A DNA stretch of 35,975 nt. Origin: a virus. A program made the position numbers and the translations under genes. The DNA lies in IMG/VR virus record IMGVR_UViG_3300034120_000574, positions 1 to 35,975 of that record; one strand, 5' to 3'. Below the pieces are notes generated by a model. That model made no database searches. It worked only from the letters and a program-made list of their open reading frames with translations, and was not told the origin of the DNA. Each line of letters begins with the position of its first letter. Position 1 is the stretch's first letter. Shown here piece by piece: positions 16,751 through 26,418 of this stretch.

Positions 16751-17353
16751 TTACCAAAATTTCTCTTTAAACCAAAAAAGAGGTATCATATATTTTAAAC
16801 CAGATTTTGTTGGTTTTGGATCATGCATATATGGCTGATAAGATGGAAAAATTACTAAGCTTCCAGCAGATGGCTTAATCTTAATTCCTTGATTTGGAAA
16901 CTCTATTTCTCCACCCTCATAATCATCGTTTAAATAGAATACCATTGAAATTGATGGTTGCTTAATGTTATAAATATCTTCCGTATCTACGTGAGGACCC
17001 ATGTATGCACTTGTATTATATTTTCTTATTGTAAAATGGTCTGGCATGTACCCAGAATCTTGATTAGTTTTTTTACAATAATCCTCTACACAAAAATCTA
17101 TTAAGTTTTTAAGAGTTTTTGCAATAATAAAAGAACTTGATTCTTCATTACAATTATTTAATATATTTGTAAATGAAGCCTCTCTAAATTCTCCATATAG
17201 CACATTTGCATTACTAGCATACCATGGCTTCCAATTAGAAAAAATATTTGCATTTTCTTGTTCTACATCATTAATTAAATTAATAAAATGATTTAAATCA
17301 TCAATTAAATTTTCATAATATACAACATTATCACATAGTATTGTTGTTTTCAT
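16751..17353 (-). CDS. 2OG-Fe(II) oxygenase, prolyl 4-hydroxylase type (sixth of six)
   Basis: 200 residues. The family uses 2-oxoglutarate, O2 and Fe(II) to hydroxylate proline or other side chains. The double-stranded beta-helix is intact: iron ligands H121-x-D123 (GPHVDTED) and H177 (YMHDP), with K187 in the place that binds the 2-oxoglutarate carboxylate. YLNDDYEGGEIEF and KPSAGSLVIFPS are hallmark motifs. It has no leader peptide, so it acts in the host cytoplasm. It overlaps the upstream gene by 23 bases and is the last gene of the eight-gene operon. It is nearest the simplest catalytic core, without extra domains. The substrate is unknown. Confidence 0.88.
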   Translation of the reverse strand: MKTTILCDNVVYYENLIDDLNHFINLINDVEQENANIFSNWKPWYASNANVLYGEFREASFTNILNNCNEESSSFIIAKTLKNLIDFCVEDYCKKTNQDSGYMPDHFTIRKYNTSAYMGPHVDTEDIYNIKQPSISMVFYLNDDYEGGEIEFPNQGIKIKPSAGSLVIFPSYQPYMHDPKPTKSGLKYMIPLFWFKEKFW

Positions 17354-18149
17354 TATTTTTCATTTTTTCTGAATACTTTATTTGTTTTCCATCTTCAAAA
17401 TAAAGCATTGCTTCTGGCATTTCTCTTTTAATTCTTTCTTCTTCTATTTTAAGCCATTCTCTAGGTCCATAAATTTTTTGACTATTTAACCAAGATTGTG
17501 ACCCGTCTGAAATATAGGTAATAAAGTTTCTTACAAAAAACTTTTCTCCTTTTTTAATTGTTTTTACTCCATGAAAATATGGTGGCACTGAAGGGAAGAC
17601 TAAAATGTCTCCCGCTTTTGGCTTGTGTGAAACAAATTGTCCATCTATAAAAAATTCAATATCTCCACCATCATAGTCGTCATTAATGTATGTTGTGCAT
17701 GTTAAAAAAAACTTTGAACCTGGCCATTCAGCTTCAAATATTTTAAAATCTGTGTGATACTGCATTGCTAGATTATTTTCTAAAACATCTAAATCTTTTT
17801 TATATTTTGAAAATGAGGAAGACATTAATTGCGCTCCCTCTGGCATAACAACATTATTGTTTTTTATATATTCATTTATTGCAATGTTATATGCTTCATA
17901 AACACTATCAGATAAAAGTTTTTCTTTATCATACATTTCGCCATACTCTCTAGCTTCTGAATCTTCGTGTTTTTGTTGAGTATAGGTTCCAAAAACTGAC
18001 CACTTATCCCATTTTCTTAAATAGTATTTGCCATCAGATGTTTTTTCAGATTCTTTCATAGTTTGATATAAATCTTCTACATTTGGCAATAAATTTCTAT
18101 ATACCTCTATTTTTGGATAAATTACTATTCTTTGATACTGGTTACTCAT
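17331..18149 (-). CDS. 2OG-Fe(II) oxygenase, prolyl 4-hydroxylase type (fifth of six)
   Basis: 272 residues. The catalytic core is complete: H132-x-D134 (QYHTDFK), distal H193 (YFHGV) and a basic residue about ten later (K203), with YINDDYDGGDIEF and KPKAGDILVFPS. Residues 1-110 form a helical N-terminal part which may select substrate, with WDKWSVFGTYTQQ and an acidic segment. The C-terminal 60 residues are helical and Glu/Lys-rich. It differs clearly from its neighbours, so it is an old paralog. The start overlaps the previous stop by four bases (ATGA). Hydroxylation of a phage virion protein is possible but not shown. Confidence 0.87.
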   Translation of the reverse strand: MSNQYQRIVIYPKIEVYRNLLPNVEDLYQTMKESEKTSDGKYYLRKWDKWSVFGTYTQQKHEDSEAREYGEMYDKEKLLSDSVYEAYNIAINEYIKNNNVVMPEGAQLMSSSFSKYKKDLDVLENNLAMQYHTDFKIFEAEWPGSKFFLTCTTYINDDYDGGDIEFFIDGQFVSHKPKAGDILVFPSVPPYFHGVKTIKKGEKFFVRNFITYISDGSQSWLNSQKIYGPREWLKIEEERIKREMPEAMLYFEDGKQIKYSEKMKNNENNNTM

Positions 18150-18880
18150 GCATTTTTCTCCTTTTCGTATTTACTCTTATATGTTGGAATTATTCCATTT
18201 TGTCTATCTTGTTCCCATTTTTTATACATTAAATCTTGTTCTGATCTTATTCCCTTTAGTTCCACTTCCCATTTAGCTTTTTCTTCATCTGTGTAGACTG
18301 CATCTGCATCGTCCCAAAATGATCCAATAGTATATCTCTCTCCATTTTTAACTGTAGTTACTTCGTGCTCATTCTTATATCCACCTTTAAATATTGAAAT
18401 CATTCCAGTTTTTGGTTTTATATTAATTGGATAATGTTCAAAATTTAAATTTCCACCATCAAAATTATCATTTAAATATAAAAATATTGCATATTTACTT
18501 CTTTGAAATGCTGTAGGGTTACCGTGTTCATCAGAGTTATCGGAATGAAATCCTGCAAATGCTCCTTCTGTCCATTTTTGTGCATGATAACTAATTTCAG
18601 ACAGCTTATTGTTAAAACAAATTTCTCCAGCATTTTTTATTTTTTCTTTAAGGCTGTGAAAATATTTTGGGTCAAAACCAAACGGAATTAAATTATTATC
18701 ATATTCCCAAAAACCCATAGCATACGATTCATAAAAAGAAATTTGATTCCATTTTATGTAATCATTCTGCACAGACATTTCTAAATAATCTATAATTCTT
18801 TTGCATTCGTCTTCATTTAAAAAGTTATCTATTGTAAAAACATCGTCTTTATGTTGTTTTATATCATACATTATTGTCAT
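18146..18880 (-). CDS. 2OG-Fe(II) oxygenase, prolyl 4-hydroxylase type (fourth of six)
   Basis: 244 residues. Ligands are H112-x-D114 (FHSDNSD) and H172 (NEHEV), with R182 (NGERY) for 2-oxoglutarate. YLNDNFDGGNLNF and KPKTGMISIF are conserved. The N-terminus VFTIDNFLNEDECKRIIDYL is the usual start of this enzyme group, where the helix caps the fold. The C-terminal extension is helical. It starts 17 bases inside the previous gene. All catalytic residues are present, so the enzyme should be active. Confidence 0.87.
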   Translation of the reverse strand: MTIMYDIKQHKDDVFTIDNFLNEDECKRIIDYLEMSVQNDYIKWNQISFYESYAMGFWEYDNNLIPFGFDPKYFHSLKEKIKNAGEICFNNKLSEISYHAQKWTEGAFAGFHSDNSDEHGNPTAFQRSKYAIFLYLNDNFDGGNLNFEHYPINIKPKTGMISIFKGGYKNEHEVTTVKNGERYTIGSFWDDADAVYTDEEKAKWEVELKGIRSEQDLMYKKWEQDRQNGIIPTYKSKYEKEKNA

Positions 18881-19583
18881 CCTTTAATTTAGTTATGGTC
18901 CAAAACCAAGGAGATGTGTATCTACATCCTTCTTTAACAACATTAACCCCGTGAATATAATTCATATCTCCAGGGAAAAAATATGCTGCTCTAGCTTTTG
19001 GTTTAAATGATATATTTTGTTTTGGAAAATGTAACTCCCCGCCTTCATAGTCATCATTTAAATAAAATATTGTTCCTAAATCGTACCATGGGAAGTCATT
19101 TTCTTTTCCTGCGTCTGGGCCCTCGTGTAACTCTTTATCTGCATGGGGGAATTGATATGTTCCTTTTGGCCAACGTACAATAGCTGGGTGGGTAGACATG
19201 GCCTCTACATTATAAAATGATTCAATAACAGGTTTTAATCTATCTATAATATTTCTTAGCATTAGAACAACATCTTGATTTGCTTTCATTAAAGTATTAA
19301 GTGTGGCTACTCTATTTTCCCATACCCTATGATCATAAATTATTGTTCCATTTTCATTATAATGGGATTCTGTAACATCCCAAATTTTATTATTTTTAGC
19401 AAAATTTAATAAAAATTCTTGTTCTTCATTTGTTAAAAAGTTTTCTATTTCTTGTATCATATCTGAAGATGATCCGAAATAGCCAGAAGGTGTTATTGAT
19501 TGCCTTGCTGTTCTAATATACTTATTATCGTTTATAGAATCAACATTTTGAATTATGTCTTTTCCTTTAGCGTTTTCAAACAT
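18864..19583 (-). CDS. 2OG-Fe(II) oxygenase, prolyl 4-hydroxylase type (third of six)
   Basis: 239 residues. Ligands are H147-x-D149 (FPHADKE) and H211 (YIHGV), with R221 (GCRYTSPWFW). YLNDDYEGGELHF and KPKARAAYFFPGD are conserved. The N-terminal 60 residues hold IQEIENFLTNEEQEFLLNFA, the cap helix typical of the group. AGGAGG sits five bases before the ATG. The gene follows the second non-enzyme gene after a gap of 9 bases. The WRPKG-like VRWPKGTYQFPHAD segment before the HxD motif is typical of prolyl hydroxylases. Confidence 0.88.
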   Translation of the reverse strand: MFENAKGKDIIQNVDSINDNKYIRTARQSITPSGYFGSSSDMIQEIENFLTNEEQEFLLNFAKNNKIWDVTESHYNENGTIIYDHRVWENRVATLNTLMKANQDVVLMLRNIIDRLKPVIESFYNVEAMSTHPAIVRWPKGTYQFPHADKELHEGPDAGKENDFPWYDLGTIFYLNDDYEGGELHFPKQNISFKPKARAAYFFPGDMNYIHGVNVVKEGCRYTSPWFWTITKLKDDNNV

Positions 19584-19592
19584 ATGTGCCTC

Positions 19593-20327
19593 CTATTTAT
19601 ATTCCTTTGGTACCCAAATATTTTTTTTATAAATTCCTCCGCCTTTTACTCTAAAATTTTTAGCAGTCTTAACGTGTTTTTTTACCATTTCTTTTTTTTC
19701 ATGAAGGACTGGATCCATCGACCAATCCTCTCTTTTAAATGGAATTACTTGTGCATACGGAGTTCCTTTTGGAATTAACCCGACAAAATCATTTTTTAAA
19801 AAAAATGGAATAAGGCCAGATATAGTATACATATCACTATCTATAATACCATTAGTTGTTAAAAATGGTAAATCAAATCTATTAAGGGGATTTAAAACTA
19901 ATAAGCTATATCCTTTGGGGGTCTCCATAGCCCAATTTGGCCACCAATGAAAATGAGTTTCTCTATATCCACTTGGTACCACAAACTCTGGCATTTTTTC
20001 TCTTCTTGCACAAAACTCTTCATATCCTTTTGGCGTTTCTACGTATATCTCACCTTTATATTCGTAAAAAGCTAAATCACATGGAGTTTTTAAAAGATAC
20101 CCTAAAGAAAATGAATCTAGTAACGCTGGGCAAGACTTAAATCCAAGTCCTCTTTCTCCAAAATTATCAGTTACATAAGATCCATCATCGTTTTTCCAAT
20201 ATTTACTTGCTTGGGAAAACCAATTGGGAATGCTTAATTTTGCTGGTACTGGCAAAAAGTCTTTTGAGTCTTTGTTATATGGCCTTGAAGAATGAAAAAT
20301 AATTTTATTCATTTTTATTATTAACAT
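19593..20327 (-). CDS. Uncharacterised protein in oxygenase operon, distantly DUF6065-like
   Basis: 244 residues, no catalytic motif recognised. It contains ILFHSS-like start (KIIFHSSRPYN), PVPAKLSIPNWFSQASKYW, an LKTPCDLAFYEYKGEIYVE segment, HFHWWPNWAMETPKGYSLLV and VGLIPKGTPYAQVIPFKRE. The order, a Cys-Pro helix, a beta-rich middle and a final 'ipkGtpyaqviPf', resembles the next gene's arrangement and similar proteins in marine phages, often with oxygenases. It may fold as a cupin-type beta barrel, but that is a guess. It overlaps the previous gene by 23 bases from ATG 20327; ATG 20312 would reduce this to 8 and gives MNKIIFHSS as a natural start, and neither has a clear ribosome site. Confidence 0.55.
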   Translation of the reverse strand: MLIIKMNKIIFHSSRPYNKDSKDFLPVPAKLSIPNWFSQASKYWKNDDGSYVTDNFGERGLGFKSCPALLDSFSLGYLLKTPCDLAFYEYKGEIYVETPKGYEEFCARREKMPEFVVPSGYRETHFHWWPNWAMETPKGYSLLVLNPLNRFDLPFLTTNGIIDSDMYTISGLIPFFLKNDFVGLIPKGTPYAQVIPFKREDWSMDPVLHEKKEMVKKHVKTAKNFRVKGGGIYKKNIWVPKEYK

Positions 20328-21009
20328 AAAGTCTTATTGCTTTTACTTCATGCTCTCCTATTTTTTGACCTTTATAGTTTACTGCATCTCTGTAAAAATT
20401 AGTCCACTTACCGCTATCTGTTTTTTCTTTAACAATTTTAACGTGCTCTTCTTCTTTTAAAACTACATTATTTTTTATATTTTTATAATTGTCAATTTCA
20501 ATTATAGAGTTTTGTAAATATGATAAAGATATTGGAACAATTGATATAAATGGTTGATTAGCTTTTATAGTAATTTTTGTAAAAGGTTTAGTAATTCTTA
20601 ATGCACAGGGAAACTCTCCTTTAAAAAATGATGTACTTATAATTGTAGTAAATGCTTGTGCCCCATCTATAAACATATTTGGAACTGGCATTTGTAACAA
20701 ACTAACATCTTTATCTGTTTCAAATACTATTCCAGTTTTAAAACTTATTGTTGCATTAGCTCTTTCTGTATAGCAGTATTCTTCGCCTTCTAATATTTTA
20801 ACATGATTTCCAGATGTGTCTGATATTCCGTCCCATACAAAAGAAATATCTTTTGGAAATGAAAGGCCCCACCCTAAGCCATTTGCTAATGTTACTGGAA
20901 AACACTTATATGCATGACCATCTACTGTATTGTCCATCCAGTCTCTTTTAATATTTATTTGAGAAATATTTGCAGAGTTATTATTTTTATAGGCTGTAAC
21001 TTTATACAC
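20305..21009 (-). CDS. DUF6065-family protein in oxygenase operon
   Basis: 234 residues. The line KRDWMDNTVDGHAYKCFPV followed by TLANGLGWGLSFPKDISFVW and a WDG motif fits DUF6065 as I remember it: a 'RDWMD..t..r.AYrClPl.iAN..GW' start, then beta strands with GI-F-T and KPFTKITIKANQPFISIVPIS near the end. No function is known to me for DUF6065. The start is GTG overlapping the previous stop (TAGTG). It lies between hydroxylases 2 and 3 in the same operon, so it likely works on the same substrate or pathway. I do not see a metal site. An HMM search with the family would decide the assignment. Confidence 0.62.
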   Translation of the reverse strand: MYKVTAYKNNNSANISQINIKRDWMDNTVDGHAYKCFPVTLANGLGWGLSFPKDISFVWDGISDTSGNHVKILEGEEYCYTERANATISFKTGIVFETDKDVSLLQMPVPNMFIDGAQAFTTIISTSFFKGEFPCALRITKPFTKITIKANQPFISIVPISLSYLQNSIIEIDNYKNIKNNVVLKEEEHVKIVKEKTDSGKWTNFYRDAVNYKGQKIGEHEVKAIRLYVNNKNE

Positions 21010-21704
21010 TATGCATAATTTTCTGTATATTTTTTTTCTATTTCTCTATATTCTGGAGTATGTGGTGCTTCTAGATAGTCTAACATAGTTACTATAGAAT
21101 ACTTAACACCTTTTGTGACTGGCATAGCTGCGTGAGAATATATATAAGATGAAGGAAATAGGTATAGATCGCCAGCCTTTGGTTTAATTTTTAAATTAAA
21201 TTTATCAAAAAATAACTCTCCGCCTTCATAATCGTCATTTATATATCCGACTGATGAGAGCACACAGATATAAGAATATCCGTGATCAGAATGAACTTGG
21301 AAATGTTGATCTTCTCCGTATTTAACAAAATTAAAGGATTCCCAATAATTTAAAGGAGCAAGCCCAAACATTTTGCTATAGTCTTTAACTGGATCTATCT
21401 GTGCTACGTATGAATCTTCCCAAATTTTTTCTAAAGCATATTCAGTTTCTTTTTTATTTTCTGGGGGGACGCTTTCTCCGCCTAGCATCAAATATCCATT
21501 AGGATTACTTTTTATTTTAAAATCGGCACAATCTCTATATCTTTTATCTTCTAGATTATATCCTGTTTTTGCAGTTTTCCATTTATATGGGTTGTTTTCT
21601 TTTGATAATTCATTTTCTAATCTTGCAACTAAATTCATTGACTCTGTAAAAACATTTCTATAGACCATAATTCCTGGTGCTAAGTATTCTGCATTTTCTA
21701 ACAT
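21009..21704 (-). CDS. 2OG-Fe(II) oxygenase, prolyl 4-hydroxylase type (second of six)
   Basis: 231 residues. Ligands are H138-x-D140 (VHSDHGYSY) and H191 (YSHAAM), with K201 (GVKYS). NYWESFNFVKYGE, YINDDYEGGELFF and KPKAGDLYLFPSS are shared with the next upstream gene (21705-22322), so the two arose by tandem duplication and then diverged. The HxD motif is followed by HGYSY, which may affect substrate choice. It starts directly at the previous stop and ends overlapping a GTG start by one base. All catalytic residues are present. Confidence 0.88.
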   Translation of the reverse strand: MLENAEYLAPGIMVYRNVFTESMNLVARLENELSKENNPYKWKTAKTGYNLEDKRYRDCADFKIKSNPNGYLMLGGESVPPENKKETEYALEKIWEDSYVAQIDPVKDYSKMFGLAPLNYWESFNFVKYGEDQHFQVHSDHGYSYICVLSSVGYINDDYEGGELFFDKFNLKIKPKAGDLYLFPSSYIYSHAAMPVTKGVKYSIVTMLDYLEAPHTPEYREIEKKYTENYA

Positions 21705-22322
21705 TTATACTCCTTTATGATGCTTATCGTTATAATCAAACATTGTTACTATCGAATATTTTGTACCAGATTTTATTGGTAGCGATTTATGAGAATATAT
21801 AAAAGAAGATGGGAATAAGTATAATTGCCCAGCTTTTGGTTTAATGTATATGTTTAATTTTGGAAAATATAATTCGCCACCATCATAATTATCATTTAAA
21901 TAACCTACTCCAGAAACTGTACAAACATATGCGTCGCCGTGATCTGAGTGCTCTTCAAAATGATGACCCTCTGTATATTTAACAAAATTAAATGATTCCC
22001 AATAATTTAATTTAATATTATACATACTTGAATAGTCTTCTAAACATTCCTTTTGAGCATTATAAGAGTCCTGCCAAATAGATTGTAATTCTAGACTACT
22101 TTTATTTTTTATAATAGAAAAATTATTGGATTTTGCAATTTTAAAATCTAAACAATTTCTATATTCTGGAATTTTTTTCTTCCATCCTACCATTGCTTCT
22201 TTCCAGGAATATATTCCGTTGCTTTGTTTTATTGTACTCTCTACTCTTTCAATTAAATTAAGAGAATCTGGAAATACGTTTTCATACAGCCAAATACCAT
22301 ATCCTACTTCTATTTTTTGCAA
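21705..22322 (-). CDS. 2OG-Fe(II) oxygenase, prolyl 4-hydroxylase type (first of six)
   Basis: 205 residues. Ligands are H125-x-D127 (EHSDHGDAY) and H178 (YSHKSL), with K188 (GTKYS). YLNDNYDGGELYF and KPKAGQLYLFPSS match the close paralog downstream. It is the first gene of the operon; the start is TTG at 22322, preceded by AGAAAG and a promoter with near-consensus -35 and TGC-TATAAT. The stop of the proline-repeat Hint protein gene is only 58 bases upstream, so substrate and enzyme genes, if they are that, adjoin. The active-site residues are complete. Confidence 0.88.
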   Translation of the reverse strand: MQKIEVGYGIWLYENVFPDSLNLIERVESTIKQSNGIYSWKEAMVGWKKKIPEYRNCLDFKIAKSNNFSIIKNKSSLELQSIWQDSYNAQKECLEDYSSMYNIKLNYWESFNFVKYTEGHHFEEHSDHGDAYVCTVSGVGYLNDNYDGGELYFPKLNIYIKPKAGQLYLFPSSFIYSHKSLPIKSGTKYSIVTMFDYNDKHHKGV

Positions 22323-22379: not shown

Positions 22380-22871
22380 TTATTTATTATGCGTTAATAT
22401 GCCATTGGCATAAATTAAATCATATGGTTCTGCGTTGAAGGTATGAACAGTACATTCTTCGGTAATTACCTCTAAAGATATAATTTCTTCTGAAATAATA
22501 TTACCGTTCGAATCATGTTTAGATAATATGTCTCCAACCTGAATTGATCCAGCCAAAATAAAACTATTTTGTCCGTTTCTAGTAATAAACATTGGATGCT
22601 CTGCTGTAAACCTAGAAGAAGGATCATTATTAATAATAATTGTTTCTTCTGCTAGAGAAGTATATTTATTAATAACTTCTGTTTTTACCAGCTCTCCAAA
22701 TGTTGCTGTTGGACTTGACCAAAATAATGATGAATAAGCAGCTTCATCTGCTGGCAGTTCTTGAATATCTACTGCCCATATCCAGTCACCTTCTTGAACA
22801 TCTTTTGCTGATTTATACTCAATAGAATCATTTTCACCAACAACTGTTACTGGCGTGTCATCATGTAAGCA
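22380..22871 (-). other. Hint (intein-like) autoprocessing domain, codons 291-453
   Basis: Intein/hedgehog-type module of about 163 residues at the extreme C-terminus. Conserved parts: N-terminal C-L-H-x-D-T-P, TAEH (block B), and a final T-H-N-K. No endonuclease insertion. A bacterial intein-like domain with no C-extein, expected to break the bond before C291 by N-S shift. Confidence 0.8.
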
Positions 22872-23741
22872 TTTGCTAAAGTATGGTGGGCCAAAGAATC
22901 TTGGAGGTGCAAAGAATCCTGGAGGTGCAAAGAATCCTGGAGGACTAAAGAATCCTGGAGGACTAAAGAATCCTGGAGGTGCAAAGAATCCTGGAGGTGC
23001 AAAGAATCCTGGAGGTGCAAAGAATCCTGGAGGTGCAAAGAATCCTGGAGGTGCAAAGAATCCTGGAGGTGCAAAGAATCCTGGAGGACTAAAGAATCCT
23101 GGAGGACTAAAGAATCCTGGAGGTGCAAAGAATGACGGTGGAGAAAAGAAAGTAGTTACTGAGTTCGTGGAAGCACCAGTAGATGTTCCATTAGCATTAA
23201 TTGCATAAACGGTATAACTTTGTGTCTGCCCACCAGTTTCGTCAATATTACGTGATGTGACTGTAATATTTTCATATGATGGCCCATCACTTGATACAAC
23301 GGTATATGATGAAATTGCTTTACCGCCAGTTTCTGGGGCAGTCCATGTAACATCATCTCTGTTTGCTACAGAAGAAGATACTGACGGAGAAACTGGTGCC
23401 TGCGGTACTGTAGTTACCAATATAGATGAAGATGGGTCTGAAGATACAGAGTTTCCGTATGAATTAGTTCCATAAACTGTAAATGTATAACTTGTATTTG
23501 ATGCTAGTCCAGTCATTGTTAATGGAGAAGACGACCCACTAACTGTCAATCCTGTAGGACTTGAAGTTACTGTAAAAGAAGATGCTTCTGGTGATCCTGC
23601 TGGCAATTCAAAAGAAATAATAGCGGATCCATTATTATATGCTCTTCCCGTTCCTACATCTGAAACAGAATTAATTATTGGTTTTTGCGGCTCTAAGAAA
23701 TCGTTTGTCGCTTGTGATTTTCTACCAGATCTTTTGCTCAT
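22380..23741 (-). CDS. FN3 / Pro-Pro-Gly repeat / Hint self-processing surface protein
   Basis: 453 residues. Residues about 17-112 and 113-197 are two fibronectin type III-like domains (VYGTNSYGNSVSS and SYTVYAINANGTSTG are FN3 endings). Residues 198-287 are 15 units of F-F-(A/S)-P-P-G, with variants at the ends (PPS, PPR, PPY). Residues 291-453 are a Hint (hedgehog/intein) domain: nucleophile C291 in CLHDDTPV, T379-A-E-H382 in block B, and C-terminal ANGILTHNK with H451-N452. The protein ends at K453, one residue after the HN, with no Cys/Ser/Thr extein residue, so it should cleave, not splice. It likely releases or links the FN3-repeat part. Probably a virion-tail or head-fibre protein acting outside the cell. 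AAGGAG precedes the ATG. Confidence 0.85.
   Translation of the reverse strand: MSKRSGRKSQATNDFLEPQKPIINSVSDVGTGRAYNNGSAIISFELPAGSPEASSFTVTSSPTGLTVSGSSSPLTMTGLASNTSYTFTVYGTNSYGNSVSSDPSSSILVTTVPQAPVSPSVSSSVANRDDVTWTAPETGGKAISSYTVVSSDGPSYENITVTSRNIDETGGQTQSYTVYAINANGTSTGASTNSVTTFFSPPSFFAPPGFFSPPGFFSPPGFFAPPGFFAPPGFFAPPGFFAPPGFFAPPGFFAPPGFFSPPGFFSPPGFFAPPGFFAPPRFFGPPYFSKCLHDDTPVTVVGENDSIEYKSAKDVQEGDWIWAVDIQELPADEAAYSSLFWSSPTATFGELVKTEVINKYTSLAEETIIINNDPSSRFTAEHPMFITRNGQNSFILAGSIQVGDILSKHDSNGNIISEEIISLEVITEECTVHTFNAEPYDLIYANGILTHNK
22881..23150 (-). repeat. Tandem 18-bp repeat encoding (F-F-A/S-P-P-G) units, 15 copies
   Basis: About 15 copies of an 18-base unit with almost no base difference beyond an A/S codon switch (GCA vs AGT). 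The unit order from the N-terminus is nearly mirror-symmetric (A, S, S, six A, S, S, A). The repeats keep frame when copy number changes by one, so length variation by slippage or recombination would not break the protein. Confidence 0.95.
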
Positions 23742-23754
23742 TTATAATATCTCC

Positions 23755-26418
23755 TTATGCCTTAAGATCTCCGTATACTACCCAAGAGTTGGTTGCTCTC
23801 TTGAATAATGTACATGATGACCATTGAGTACGTAATTTTAATCCAGGAGTAGCATTTACAGTTACCCCAGTATCTCCTGCAATTGTAATTAAGCCAGTAT
23901 TTGTACCAAGTATATCTAGAGTTGTTCCAATTGGATAAGCAACTGCTGAGTTAGTTGGGATTGTTATTGTTACTGGGCTTGTAGAATCTACCTCTATTAA
24001 TGAGTCTCTTTCAGATAGTTCAGATAATGTGTAGTTTGCAGTTTTTGAAATAATTGGAGTTCTTGAAGGAACGCCTTCTTTTGTTTGGGTACCATCTGAA
24101 AATGCTACTCCAGAAGATGCTGTTATTACTCCTGAGAATGTTGGTGCATTTTCTACTGCAATTGTTGCACCATCCTTTGTAATGTTTGTGCCAGCAATTA
24201 CTGCCTCAGAAGCATTAAACTGTACGTAGCTAATATTTGTAGTTCCGATTGTAATTGTTCCTGTTGTACTAACAAGGAAGCCTTTAGAACCATTTGATGA
24301 GCCAGATGTTACGAATACGAAGTCTCCAGTTGAAACTTCTCCCGCAGGACTATTATCGCTGTCTGCTGCACGAGTAATTTGCCAAGGATTTGAACCATCT
24401 CCTACAGCGGTAATTGTGTAAATACCATTTTCTTTAGCATCAGTTTGTGCACGAAGAAGAATTCTATCTCCTACAGCAACTGCTGCTCCGTCGATAGTTC
24501 CTATAGATCCATTTGTTGCTTTTGTTAATGTTGCTCCCACTCCAGAAGTACCATTGTTATATGTTCCAGCAAGGTTTCCTGCAGTTGCTGCAATTACTGG
24601 TTGATGAAAGTTAATTCCAGCTGCAAGTCCATCAACATACTGTTTAGTTACTGCGTGGAGATCTGACGTAGGTGCACCTGAAAGTGTTAGTGCTCCTGTC
24701 ATTGTTCCACCAGCAAGTGCTAGTTTAGCGTCTAAAGCTGTTTGTGTAGCAGTTGATACTGGTTTGTTGGCGTCAGATGTATTATCAACATTTCCTAATC
24801 CAACCATTGTTGCTGTAATTCCTGTTGCTGTTGTTGTTACTGAAAGCGTAGGTATTGTTACGGTACCAGTAAATGTTGGTCCTGCTATATTAGACTTTAA
24901 ATTGTCTGCGTCGTCTACATATGTCTTTGTAGCAAGAGCAGATGTGTCTGCAATACCGTGTACAGATGTAGTTGCAGAATTGTGATTGGAAACTGCTGTT
25001 CCTAGATTTGATGCCGTGGTGATTGCTTCTTGAGTTACAGCATTGTCTGCATATGTTTTTGTAGCAAGAGCAGATGTGTCTGCAATACCGTGAATATTTG
25101 TAGTATCTGATTCGTGGGTTGAAACAGCGCTATCTGCATATGTTTTTGTAGCAAGAGCAGATGTGTCTGCAATACCGTGAATATTTGTAGTATCTGATTC
25201 GTGGGTTGAAACAGCGCTATCTGCATATGTTTTTGTTGCCAATAAAGATGTATCTGCAATACCATGAATATTAGTTGTATCAGATTCGTGTGTAGATAAG
25301 TCAGTTGATGACGCCTTACTATTTAATTGTGTTTGTATAGAAGATGTAACGCCGTCTACATAATTAAGTTCTGTTGTAGATAATGTTGCACCGTAAAGTA
25401 TATTTAACTCTGTAGCGCTTGCTGTTAAAGGCACATCCTCATTAATTTTAGGGGAATTTAAAGTTTTGTTTGTAACGGTTTGTGTTCCATCTGTTGTAAG
25501 AAGCTTAGATGTGTCTGCAATACCATGAATATTTGTAGTATCTGATTCGTGGGTTTGAACAGCTCCAGTAGTAAAGCTTTCTAGCGTACTTTGTAATGAA
25601 TCTAAATTATCTAGAATTGCTAATTCTTTTGAATTTGCTGCTCCATAATTAGCTACCCATTTATCATTTACTTCATCCCATTGAATAAATGCTGGTAGTG
25701 AAGATCCTCGTCTTACAGAGAATGCAGCACTAAGAGTCGGAGCTCCAGTAGATACATTTGAATTTAAAATAATTTCATTATCTTCTACAAGAAGTTCTGC
25801 AGTATTTAATGTTGTTGTATCTCCAGAAACTGTCAAATTTCCAGGAACTACTAAATCTCCAGAACTTGTAAATACTGCTACTGTTCCTGTAGCATTTGGA
25901 AATGTAATTGTTTGATCTTCTGTAGGATTTGTTACTGTAAGGGTTGTTTCATATGCGTCTGCAGATGATCCCTCTAAAATAATGCTTGATTTTGGAACCA
26001 ATAAGTTTCCATCGACATCTAACTTTGCTGGTCCGCCTGCGTTACCAACATCTGCTAGTAATACATAATCTGCTGCTGCTGCGTTGTCTAATCCAGTTAT
26101 TTGATCATCGACATAAGATTTAAGTGCAACAACTGATGAGTCAATATTAAGAGAAATTGTATTTGTGCCATCATTGTAAGATTTTGTAAGACCTGCTCCC
26201 ATTGAAAGTGCTGAGTCGATTGCATCTTGTGCAATTTCTGTAATTCCTGGTGCATCTGATGCAATGTATGCAAGGCTAGTCCATGCTGTGTTGCCAGTTC
26301 CAACTTTAATTTTTCTGGTGTCTGTTTCAACACCCATTTCACCTGCGGCTAATGTAGGATTTGCTGAGGTCCATTCTGATGCTGTTCCTCGTCTTACTTG
26401 AATTCTTACTGTTGACAT
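23755..26418 (-). CDS. Tail fibre protein, large, with repeat segment
   Basis: 887 residues. The N-terminus STVRIQVRRGTASEW and NPTLAAGEMGVETDTRKIKVG is a phage tail-fibre/tropism-determinant start that binds the baseplate. Residues about 190-270 (NLTVSGDTTTLNTAELL...DEVNDKWVANYG) match a module in the 29496-31073 protein. Residues about 315-365 (ELNILYGATLSTTELNYVDG) match a module in 26885-28492. Residues about 370-457 are three 29-residue repeats (STHESDTTNIHGIADTS). The middle ALTLSGAPTSDLHAVTKQYVDG and the NGIYTITAVGDG segment are common in phage fibre proteins. The C-terminus has a beta-type tip. No signal peptide. Adhesion or host recognition is the likely role. Confidence 0.85.
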   Translation of the reverse strand: MSTVRIQVRRGTASEWTSANPTLAAGEMGVETDTRKIKVGTGNTAWTSLAYIASDAPGITEIAQDAIDSALSMGAGLTKSYNDGTNTISLNIDSSVVALKSYVDDQITGLDNAAAADYVLLADVGNAGGPAKLDVDGNLLVPKSSIILEGSSADAYETTLTVTNPTEDQTITFPNATGTVAVFTSSGDLVVPGNLTVSGDTTTLNTAELLVEDNEIILNSNVSTGAPTLSAAFSVRRGSSLPAFIQWDEVNDKWVANYGAANSKELAILDNLDSLQSTLESFTTGAVQTHESDTTNIHGIADTSKLLTTDGTQTVTNKTLNSPKINEDVPLTASATELNILYGATLSTTELNYVDGVTSSIQTQLNSKASSTDLSTHESDTTNIHGIADTSLLATKTYADSAVSTHESDTTNIHGIADTSALATKTYADSAVSTHESDTTNIHGIADTSALATKTYADNAVTQEAITTASNLGTAVSNHNSATTSVHGIADTSALATKTYVDDADNLKSNIAGPTFTGTVTIPTLSVTTTATGITATMVGLGNVDNTSDANKPVSTATQTALDAKLALAGGTMTGALTLSGAPTSDLHAVTKQYVDGLAAGINFHQPVIAATAGNLAGTYNNGTSGVGATLTKATNGSIGTIDGAAVAVGDRILLRAQTDAKENGIYTITAVGDGSNPWQITRAADSDNSPAGEVSTGDFVFVTSGSSNGSKGFLVSTTGTITIGTTNISYVQFNASEAVIAGTNITKDGATIAVENAPTFSGVITASSGVAFSDGTQTKEGVPSRTPIISKTANYTLSELSERDSLIEVDSTSPVTITIPTNSAVAYPIGTTLDILGTNTGLITIAGDTGVTVNATPGLKLRTQWSSCTLFKRATNSWVVYGDLKA
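25046..25306 (-). repeat. 87-bp tandem repeat in fibre gene (three units)
   Basis: Units begin at 25046, 25133 and 25220. The first two are nearly identical and the third is diverged, giving 29-residue repeats. The period keeps reading frame. A related partial unit is found at 24908-24962, and one at about 25505-25560. Confidence 0.9.

Follow-up and report, generated by a model that had tools for sequence, protein, structure and literature searches.

Hint domains have been described from inteins, hedgehogs, BILs and toxins. A report on type-A BILs describes splicing at a low level via the freed amine of the C-terminal part, with cleavage dominating (PMC4031507). A separate precedent for a removable C-terminal fibre domain is T5 pb1, whose S74 domain is reported to be a trimeric chaperone that is cleaved off ahead of its Ser; the authors propose that this removal unmasks receptor binding (PMC4690869). 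How viruses use prolyl hydroxylases 'remains cryptic', in the words of a 2022 survey (PMC9301287). Hint domains have already been noticed in phage proteins such as the one described here, as database names such as 'Fibronectin type III' and 'Hint domain containing protein' and the 'intein domain' of a Phage NCTB record attest, while we found no functional study of a C-terminal Hint domain on phage fibre proteins in the open PMC literature, outside which most subscription journals lie.

The window analysed here is a 35,975-base viral record from an uncultivated virus of bacteria, and the ORF described here, its parts, the six oxygenase genes and the upstream tail-fibre-type gene with coordinates given below lie on its minus strand. 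An ORF with an ATG start (22380..23741) encodes a 453-residue protein composed of an FN3 part, an FFxPPG repeat and a Hint domain. The FN3 domain (residues 36-105; 23427..23636) is the one Pfam-significant FN3 match (fn3, E 2.7e-8), and a probable second β-sandwich (residues about 117-196; 23154..23393) is visible only in the full-length AlphaFold model, in which this block has a pLDDT of about 57-79. As that model is poor overall (pLDDT 51.8), we make no claim on the shape of the repeat that follows, an array of 13.4 copies of an 18-base unit detected by TRF (22892..23133). The Hint domain (residues 291-453; 22383..22871) is supported by sequence and profile matches, an AlphaFold2 model and structure comparison. 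It begins at the junction GPPYFSK/CLHDDTP, where the first residue after the slash is C291 (codon 22869..22871), the N-terminal nucleophile by sequence and alignment. Block B contains T379-x-x-H382 in the context RFT379AEH382PMF (22596..22607), and block G consists of H451-N452 followed by the terminal K453 (22383..22391), so that the protein ends GILTH451N452K453-stop.

An earlier note on this DNA had pointed to C291 at the repeat boundary, to the T-x-x-H motif and to a final H-N-K with one residue after the Asn; all are present in the sequence, and the interval it gave, 22380-22871, runs exactly from C291 to the stop codon of the ORF. The same note spoke of an FN3-repeat protein of fibre type, of which one Pfam-significant FN3 domain stands, with the second sandwich seen in the model alone. 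The fibre-type assignment we infer from gene context: the gene sits in a structural module with tape measure, head-tail adaptor, major head protein, protease and portal genes, and tail-fibre-type genes lie immediately upstream, including one whose product has an Mtd_N start (23755..26418; PF18454, 3e-16; PHROG tail fibre matches).

Searched on its own sequence, the Hint part finds the BIL structure 2lwy with a similarity that is weak but genuine (E 2.4e-4), and the Pfam Intein_splicing profile stays below threshold (19.1 bits against a cut-off of 35.8). A search of the window's own record for PT-HINT (PF07591) gave no match, and the only NCBIfam hit was a weak one, to a DNA polymerase that bears an intein. 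A profile built from 53 distinct relatives finds 2lwy at 7.5e-8, together with several inteins, and an AlphaFold2 model based on the same alignment reaches a pLDDT of 91.2 and a pTM of 0.85. The closest solved structure to this model in VIA-align is Tetrahymena BIL2 (6y75; Z 18.3, 1.9 Å over 137 residues), followed by the Mtu RecA intein (Z 17.6), 2lwy (Z 17.3) and hedgehog 1at0 (Z 17.2); the matches to BIL, intein and hedgehog span 132-140 residues at Z 17-18, values within 1 of each other counting as tied. Z was at least 8 for 84 of 993 aligned chains, and the 50 entries among the matches listed are all of intein, BIL or hedgehog type. A Foldseek comparison with viral models returned uncultured-phage proteins named 'Fibronectin type III', 'PASTA' and 'Hint domain containing', plus unnamed entries. 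As judged from the model, the C-terminal domain is a member of the Hint superfamily by fold, in line with the earlier note, which had also recognised that all canonical residues are present and that Cys, Ser or Thr is missing at +1.

Close relatives were found at 11 viral-contig loci, with Hint domains 81-100% identical and all ending GILTHNK-stop. The identical 453-residue protein contains 15 FFxPP motifs and the 495-residue protein of L029 contains 22; the proteins of L001 and L029 differ from those of L002-L006 by seven FFxPPG units (495 against 453 residues) and are otherwise identical, a case of repeat-number variation. A genome scan for FFxPPGFFxPP gave four stretches, counted regardless of frame. 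The pattern NGIL-x-HNK-stop occurs in 20 stretches, nine of them on new contigs, where L043 is a divergent FN3-repeat relative and L026 combines a PASTA match with FFxPP repeats. The other seven (L025, L032, L035, L036, L037, L041, L042) belong to a different kind of phage protein, whose last Hint-like domain ends HNK-stop; judged from their sequences, these proteins apparently carry two or more Hint-like units in tandem, with multiple HMM domains in L035 and L037 and, in L025, two stretches that have Pfam matches of Hint type. Searched with tblastn against named phages, the whole 453-residue protein had no match; the Hint parts matched Phage NCTB alone, a third Hint query having no match, and a tandem-Hint query hit 25 records, whose annotation is mostly helicase, terminase or hypothetical.

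The wider P/F-repeat family, a large one in uncultivated phages, was assembled from an FFxPPxFFxPP scan and the earlier loci, including those from the HNK scan, and comprises at least 132 ORFs, at least 125 of them with a stop codon, the seven open ORFs being omitted. After the last repeat, at least 68 ORFs (at least 53 distinct) have a tail of 130 residues or more, assigned as Hint by this length together with alignment, and at least 57 have short tails; the ratio of 68 to 57 describes the matches listed, with HNK-scan loci mixed in, and is not a frequency. For 15 Hint ORFs among the matches listed that contain at most two FFxPP motifs, the HMM matches end 0-16 residues from the C-terminus. 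For the 53 distinct Hint tails among the matches listed, the window counted, position 1 is Cys in 46 and Ser in 7 with no exception, and the complete canonical set (C1, T/SxxH, HN) is kept in 9. The other catalytic positions vary across these 53 tails among the matches listed: the block-B His is His in 16, Gln in 22 and Glu in 15; the penultimate position is His in 24, Tyr in 15, Ile in 7, Phe in 6 and Asn in 1; the Asn position is Asn in 39, Ala in 7 and Asp in 7; and the His-Asn pair is retained in 24 and gone in 29. Seven distinct tails (from L055, L073, L076, L086, L105 and L145) combine Cys1 with Gln for the block-B His and an Ile-Ala end, without His-Asn.

The alignment has 157 columns and a mean identity of 30%, and position 1 ranks in its top five for conservation; the conservation groups were defined partly by catalytic residues. 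In a tree built by a quick method with the catalytic columns excluded, the window falls in a five-row clade with support of 100 in which all canonical residues are retained. When the window is compared with four relatives, dN/dS is 0.08-0.16 for the Hint part and 0.14-0.32 for the FN3 part, lower for Hint in 4 of 4 pairs; the ratios are rough, several dS values exceeding 1. On these comparisons the Hint domain of the window's clade is under firm purifying selection, and across the aligned family the nucleophile is seen as the most durable catalytic feature, the C-terminal residues having been lost more than once. The presence of Cys or Ser at position 1 throughout the 53 tails implies that, of the Hint reactions, selection maintains the N-terminal one best.

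The FN3 body also occurs without Hint, since many short-tail proteins have an FN3 body 51-69% identical to that of the Hint proteins and end differently, with a few to a few dozen unrelated residues after the repeats. These homologues stop near the predicted Hint cut site. At one locus, L066 (9935-9969 region, minus strand), the FFxPPG repeats read PPGFK/SDLRDK and are followed, where others have Hint, by a Peptidase_S74 domain (PF13884, E 2e-10). A targeted scan for further Peptidase_S74 domains after repeats found no second case beyond L066, and a Pfam search of the window protein for PF13884 gave no match. Other C-terminal tips, Cys-rich or aromatic, are found where Hint sits in relatives. 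Of 48 distinct short-tail proteins among the matches listed, 13 have FK-stop as their end, and Lys directly precedes position 1 in 18 of the 53 distinct Hint tails among the matches listed; the parallel is only suggestive because these proteins have other N-termini, their N-terminal parts giving no BLAST match to the Hint proteins.

On balance, we consider it probable, if by no great measure, that the last 163 residues form a type-A BIL-like Hint domain, an end piece that removes itself from a phage fibre or tail-associated protein. The steps would follow by analogy from Hint chemistry. After folding or assembly, C291 would attack the K290-C291 bond in an N-to-S shift assisted by T379 and H382, and the thioester would be resolved, most likely by water, to leave an FN3-FFxPPG protein with the end GPPYFSK. 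Cyclisation of N452 may free K453, and ligation would be limited to at most this single Lys. The domain would serve in the manner of the Peptidase_S74 fibre chaperones, being required during assembly and then discarded. Several observations weigh against self-removal: of the 53 tails among the matches listed, the block-B His is replaced in those with Q (22) or E (15) and His-Asn is lost in 29; the -1 residue is variable in the distinct Hint tails among the matches listed, being Pro in 3 of 53; the FK-ending short proteins show no N-terminal kinship to the Hint proteins; and S74 takes the place of Hint in a single locus. Pro at -1 would be expected to hinder the N-S shift.

Since the domain is kept in clades in which the block-B His is replaced or His-Asn is lost, it may not cut there and could form a tip or cap. 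Extended to the window, where the active-site residues would be a relic, this gives a catalytically spent Hint fold serving as a structural cap or receptor-binding tip. Such a role would suit a fold that persists while 37 of the 53 tails among the matches listed lack the block-B His and 29 lack His-Asn, as well as the Cys-rich and aromatic tips that occupy the same place elsewhere. The constancy of Cys or Ser at position 1 among the matches listed and the full canonical set of the window's clade speak against it, and we regard it as unlikely, if the most credible of the alternatives.

The earlier note had described the domain as built to cleave and not to splice. The missing Cys, Ser or Thr at +1 and the good retention of the N-terminal reaction favour the first part, but type-A BILs splice without a +1 nucleophile, so its absence does not by itself forbid splicing (PMC4031507). 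The freed amine of the C-terminal Lys, or of x-Lys, might then take the thioester, adding one or a few residues. In 23 of the 24 His-Asn rows among the matches listed, either the +1 or the +2 residue is Lys, against 5.5% of residues overall, and a free-residue scan for NGILVHNx-stop returned 17 stretches, seven of which are the same tandem-type Hint proteins with x = Lys in all seven, the remaining ten being four intein-type genes in which the next codon is not a stop and six short chance frames. Against this, the rows are related, the Lys may merely aid folding or solubility, and it is missing from clades without His-Asn; such low-level splicing seems to us distinctly unlikely in the window protein.

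Also proposed in the earlier note was covalent attachment, in which the Hint thioester is passed to an amine on a different virion protein or on a cell surface, much as hedgehog is joined to cholesterol. A nucleophile at position 1 in 53 of 53 tails among the matches listed, even where the Asn is lost, and a fold no further from hedgehog 1at0 (Z 17.2) than from inteins are compatible with such a transfer. Neither an acceptor domain nor a partner is seen, though, and the Hint-less homologues would be left without attachment; these homologues, ending near the cut, and the one Peptidase_S74 domain at that place favour removal of a C-terminal assembly domain instead. The hedgehog-like joining finds no counterpart in a sterol-binding-type part after Hint, and membership of the hedgehog Hog group was rejected, as the protein ends one residue past the Asn with no sterol or adduct region. 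The attachment proposal gained no direct support, and we hold it to be very doubtful. A selfish intein remnant at the fibre gene, to which the intein-type fold and His-Asn might point, is exceedingly improbable and was rejected: the +1 position is Lys, then stop, with no nucleophile and no C-extein beyond it, the domain is not inserted between two halves of a conserved protein, its 163 residues leave no room for a homing endonuclease, and the Hint-less homologues have unrelated short tails in place of a common C-extein.

The proposed self-removing end piece can be set beside the genes that directly follow the PPG-repeat gene, a run of six 2OG-Fe(II) oxygenases (16751-22322), all six of which match PF13640 and retain the HxD...H triad. 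The first gene after the Hint gene (21705..22322; PF13640, 1.2e-11) and the second oxygenase (21009..21704) both match prolyl 4-hydroxylase structures, and the others lie at 18864..19583, 18146..18880, 17331..18149 and 16751..17353; prolyl 4-hydroxylases are the best solved relatives of the oxygenase profile (E about 9e-12). A DUF6065 protein (PF19541, E 3e-28; window 20305-21009) lies within the run. Counting only genes among the matches listed whose flanks total at least 6 kb, the oxygenase HMM finds an oxygenase within 6 kb of the repeat gene for 33 of 37 Hint genes and 25 of 34 short-tail genes. Viewed in reverse, from the best 80 of 308 loci retrieved with the first oxygenase, 66 of the 68 with at least 1.5 kb upstream have a P/F-repeat gene there (49 with Hint and 17 without; two have none), or 37 of 39 once duplicates are removed, against a background in these best 80 of 308 loci of P/F repeats in 52 of 866 distinct ORFs of at least 100 residues. 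Inherited gene order explains part of this linkage, because the loci are related. The small FK-ending repeat proteins show a different arrangement, with an oxygenase 9 bases away on the opposite strand.

In collagen, PPG is the motif that becomes hydroxylated, and procollagen loses its C-propeptide. The adjoining P4H-like enzymes probably hydroxylate the PPG repeats, and the linkage suggests a collagen-like maturation in which hydroxylated PPG repeats would be combined with a removable C-terminal domain. We tentatively advance, as a possibility well short of probable, that a tailed-phage fibre may follow a procollagen-like route, with PPG hydroxylation by phage-encoded prolyl 4-hydroxylases and autocatalytic removal of the C-terminal domain by Hint, or by Peptidase_S74 in another repeat gene, and that the +1/+2 Lys of the Hint form may capture the thioester. 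Because the P4H-like oxygenase genes are tightly linked to the repeat gene, phage prolyl hydroxylases gain a concrete candidate substrate. More broadly, a broad phage family that places Hint at the end of proline-rich repeat proteins, and in which catalytic residues are lost by degrees around an invariant nucleophile, would lend itself naturally to asking which Hint reaction is maintained by selection.

Compared with known systems, the window's Hint domain is distinct from a class 1 intein in having Lys-stop at +1 and in lacking an insertion between two exteins. It shares the fold, the N-terminal Cys and the T/H residues with the hedgehog Hog domain (1at0), but is without the sterol-binding part and retains the terminal Asn. 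Phage NCTB (LT598654) likewise has tail-region proteins ending in Hint (HNAVMVAKK, HNAPVDQKH), one of them with collagen-like repeats, although they are without FFxPPG repeats and only 23-28% identical over the matched stretches. The Peptidase_S74 chaperones of endosialidase and T5 pb1 resemble it in the proposed role of a C-terminal self-cleaving fibre domain and in occupying the same place in L066, whereas their fold and chemistry are unrelated to Hint. Type-A BILs (2lwy; BIL2, 6y75) are alike in the Hint fold at Z 17-18, Cys1, TxxH, the terminal His-Asn and the absence of Cys, Ser or Thr at +1; they sit flanked on both sides in a variable region of a host protein, whereas the window's domain lies at the very C-terminus, itself variable, of a phage P/F-repeat protein, with a single residue past the Asn.
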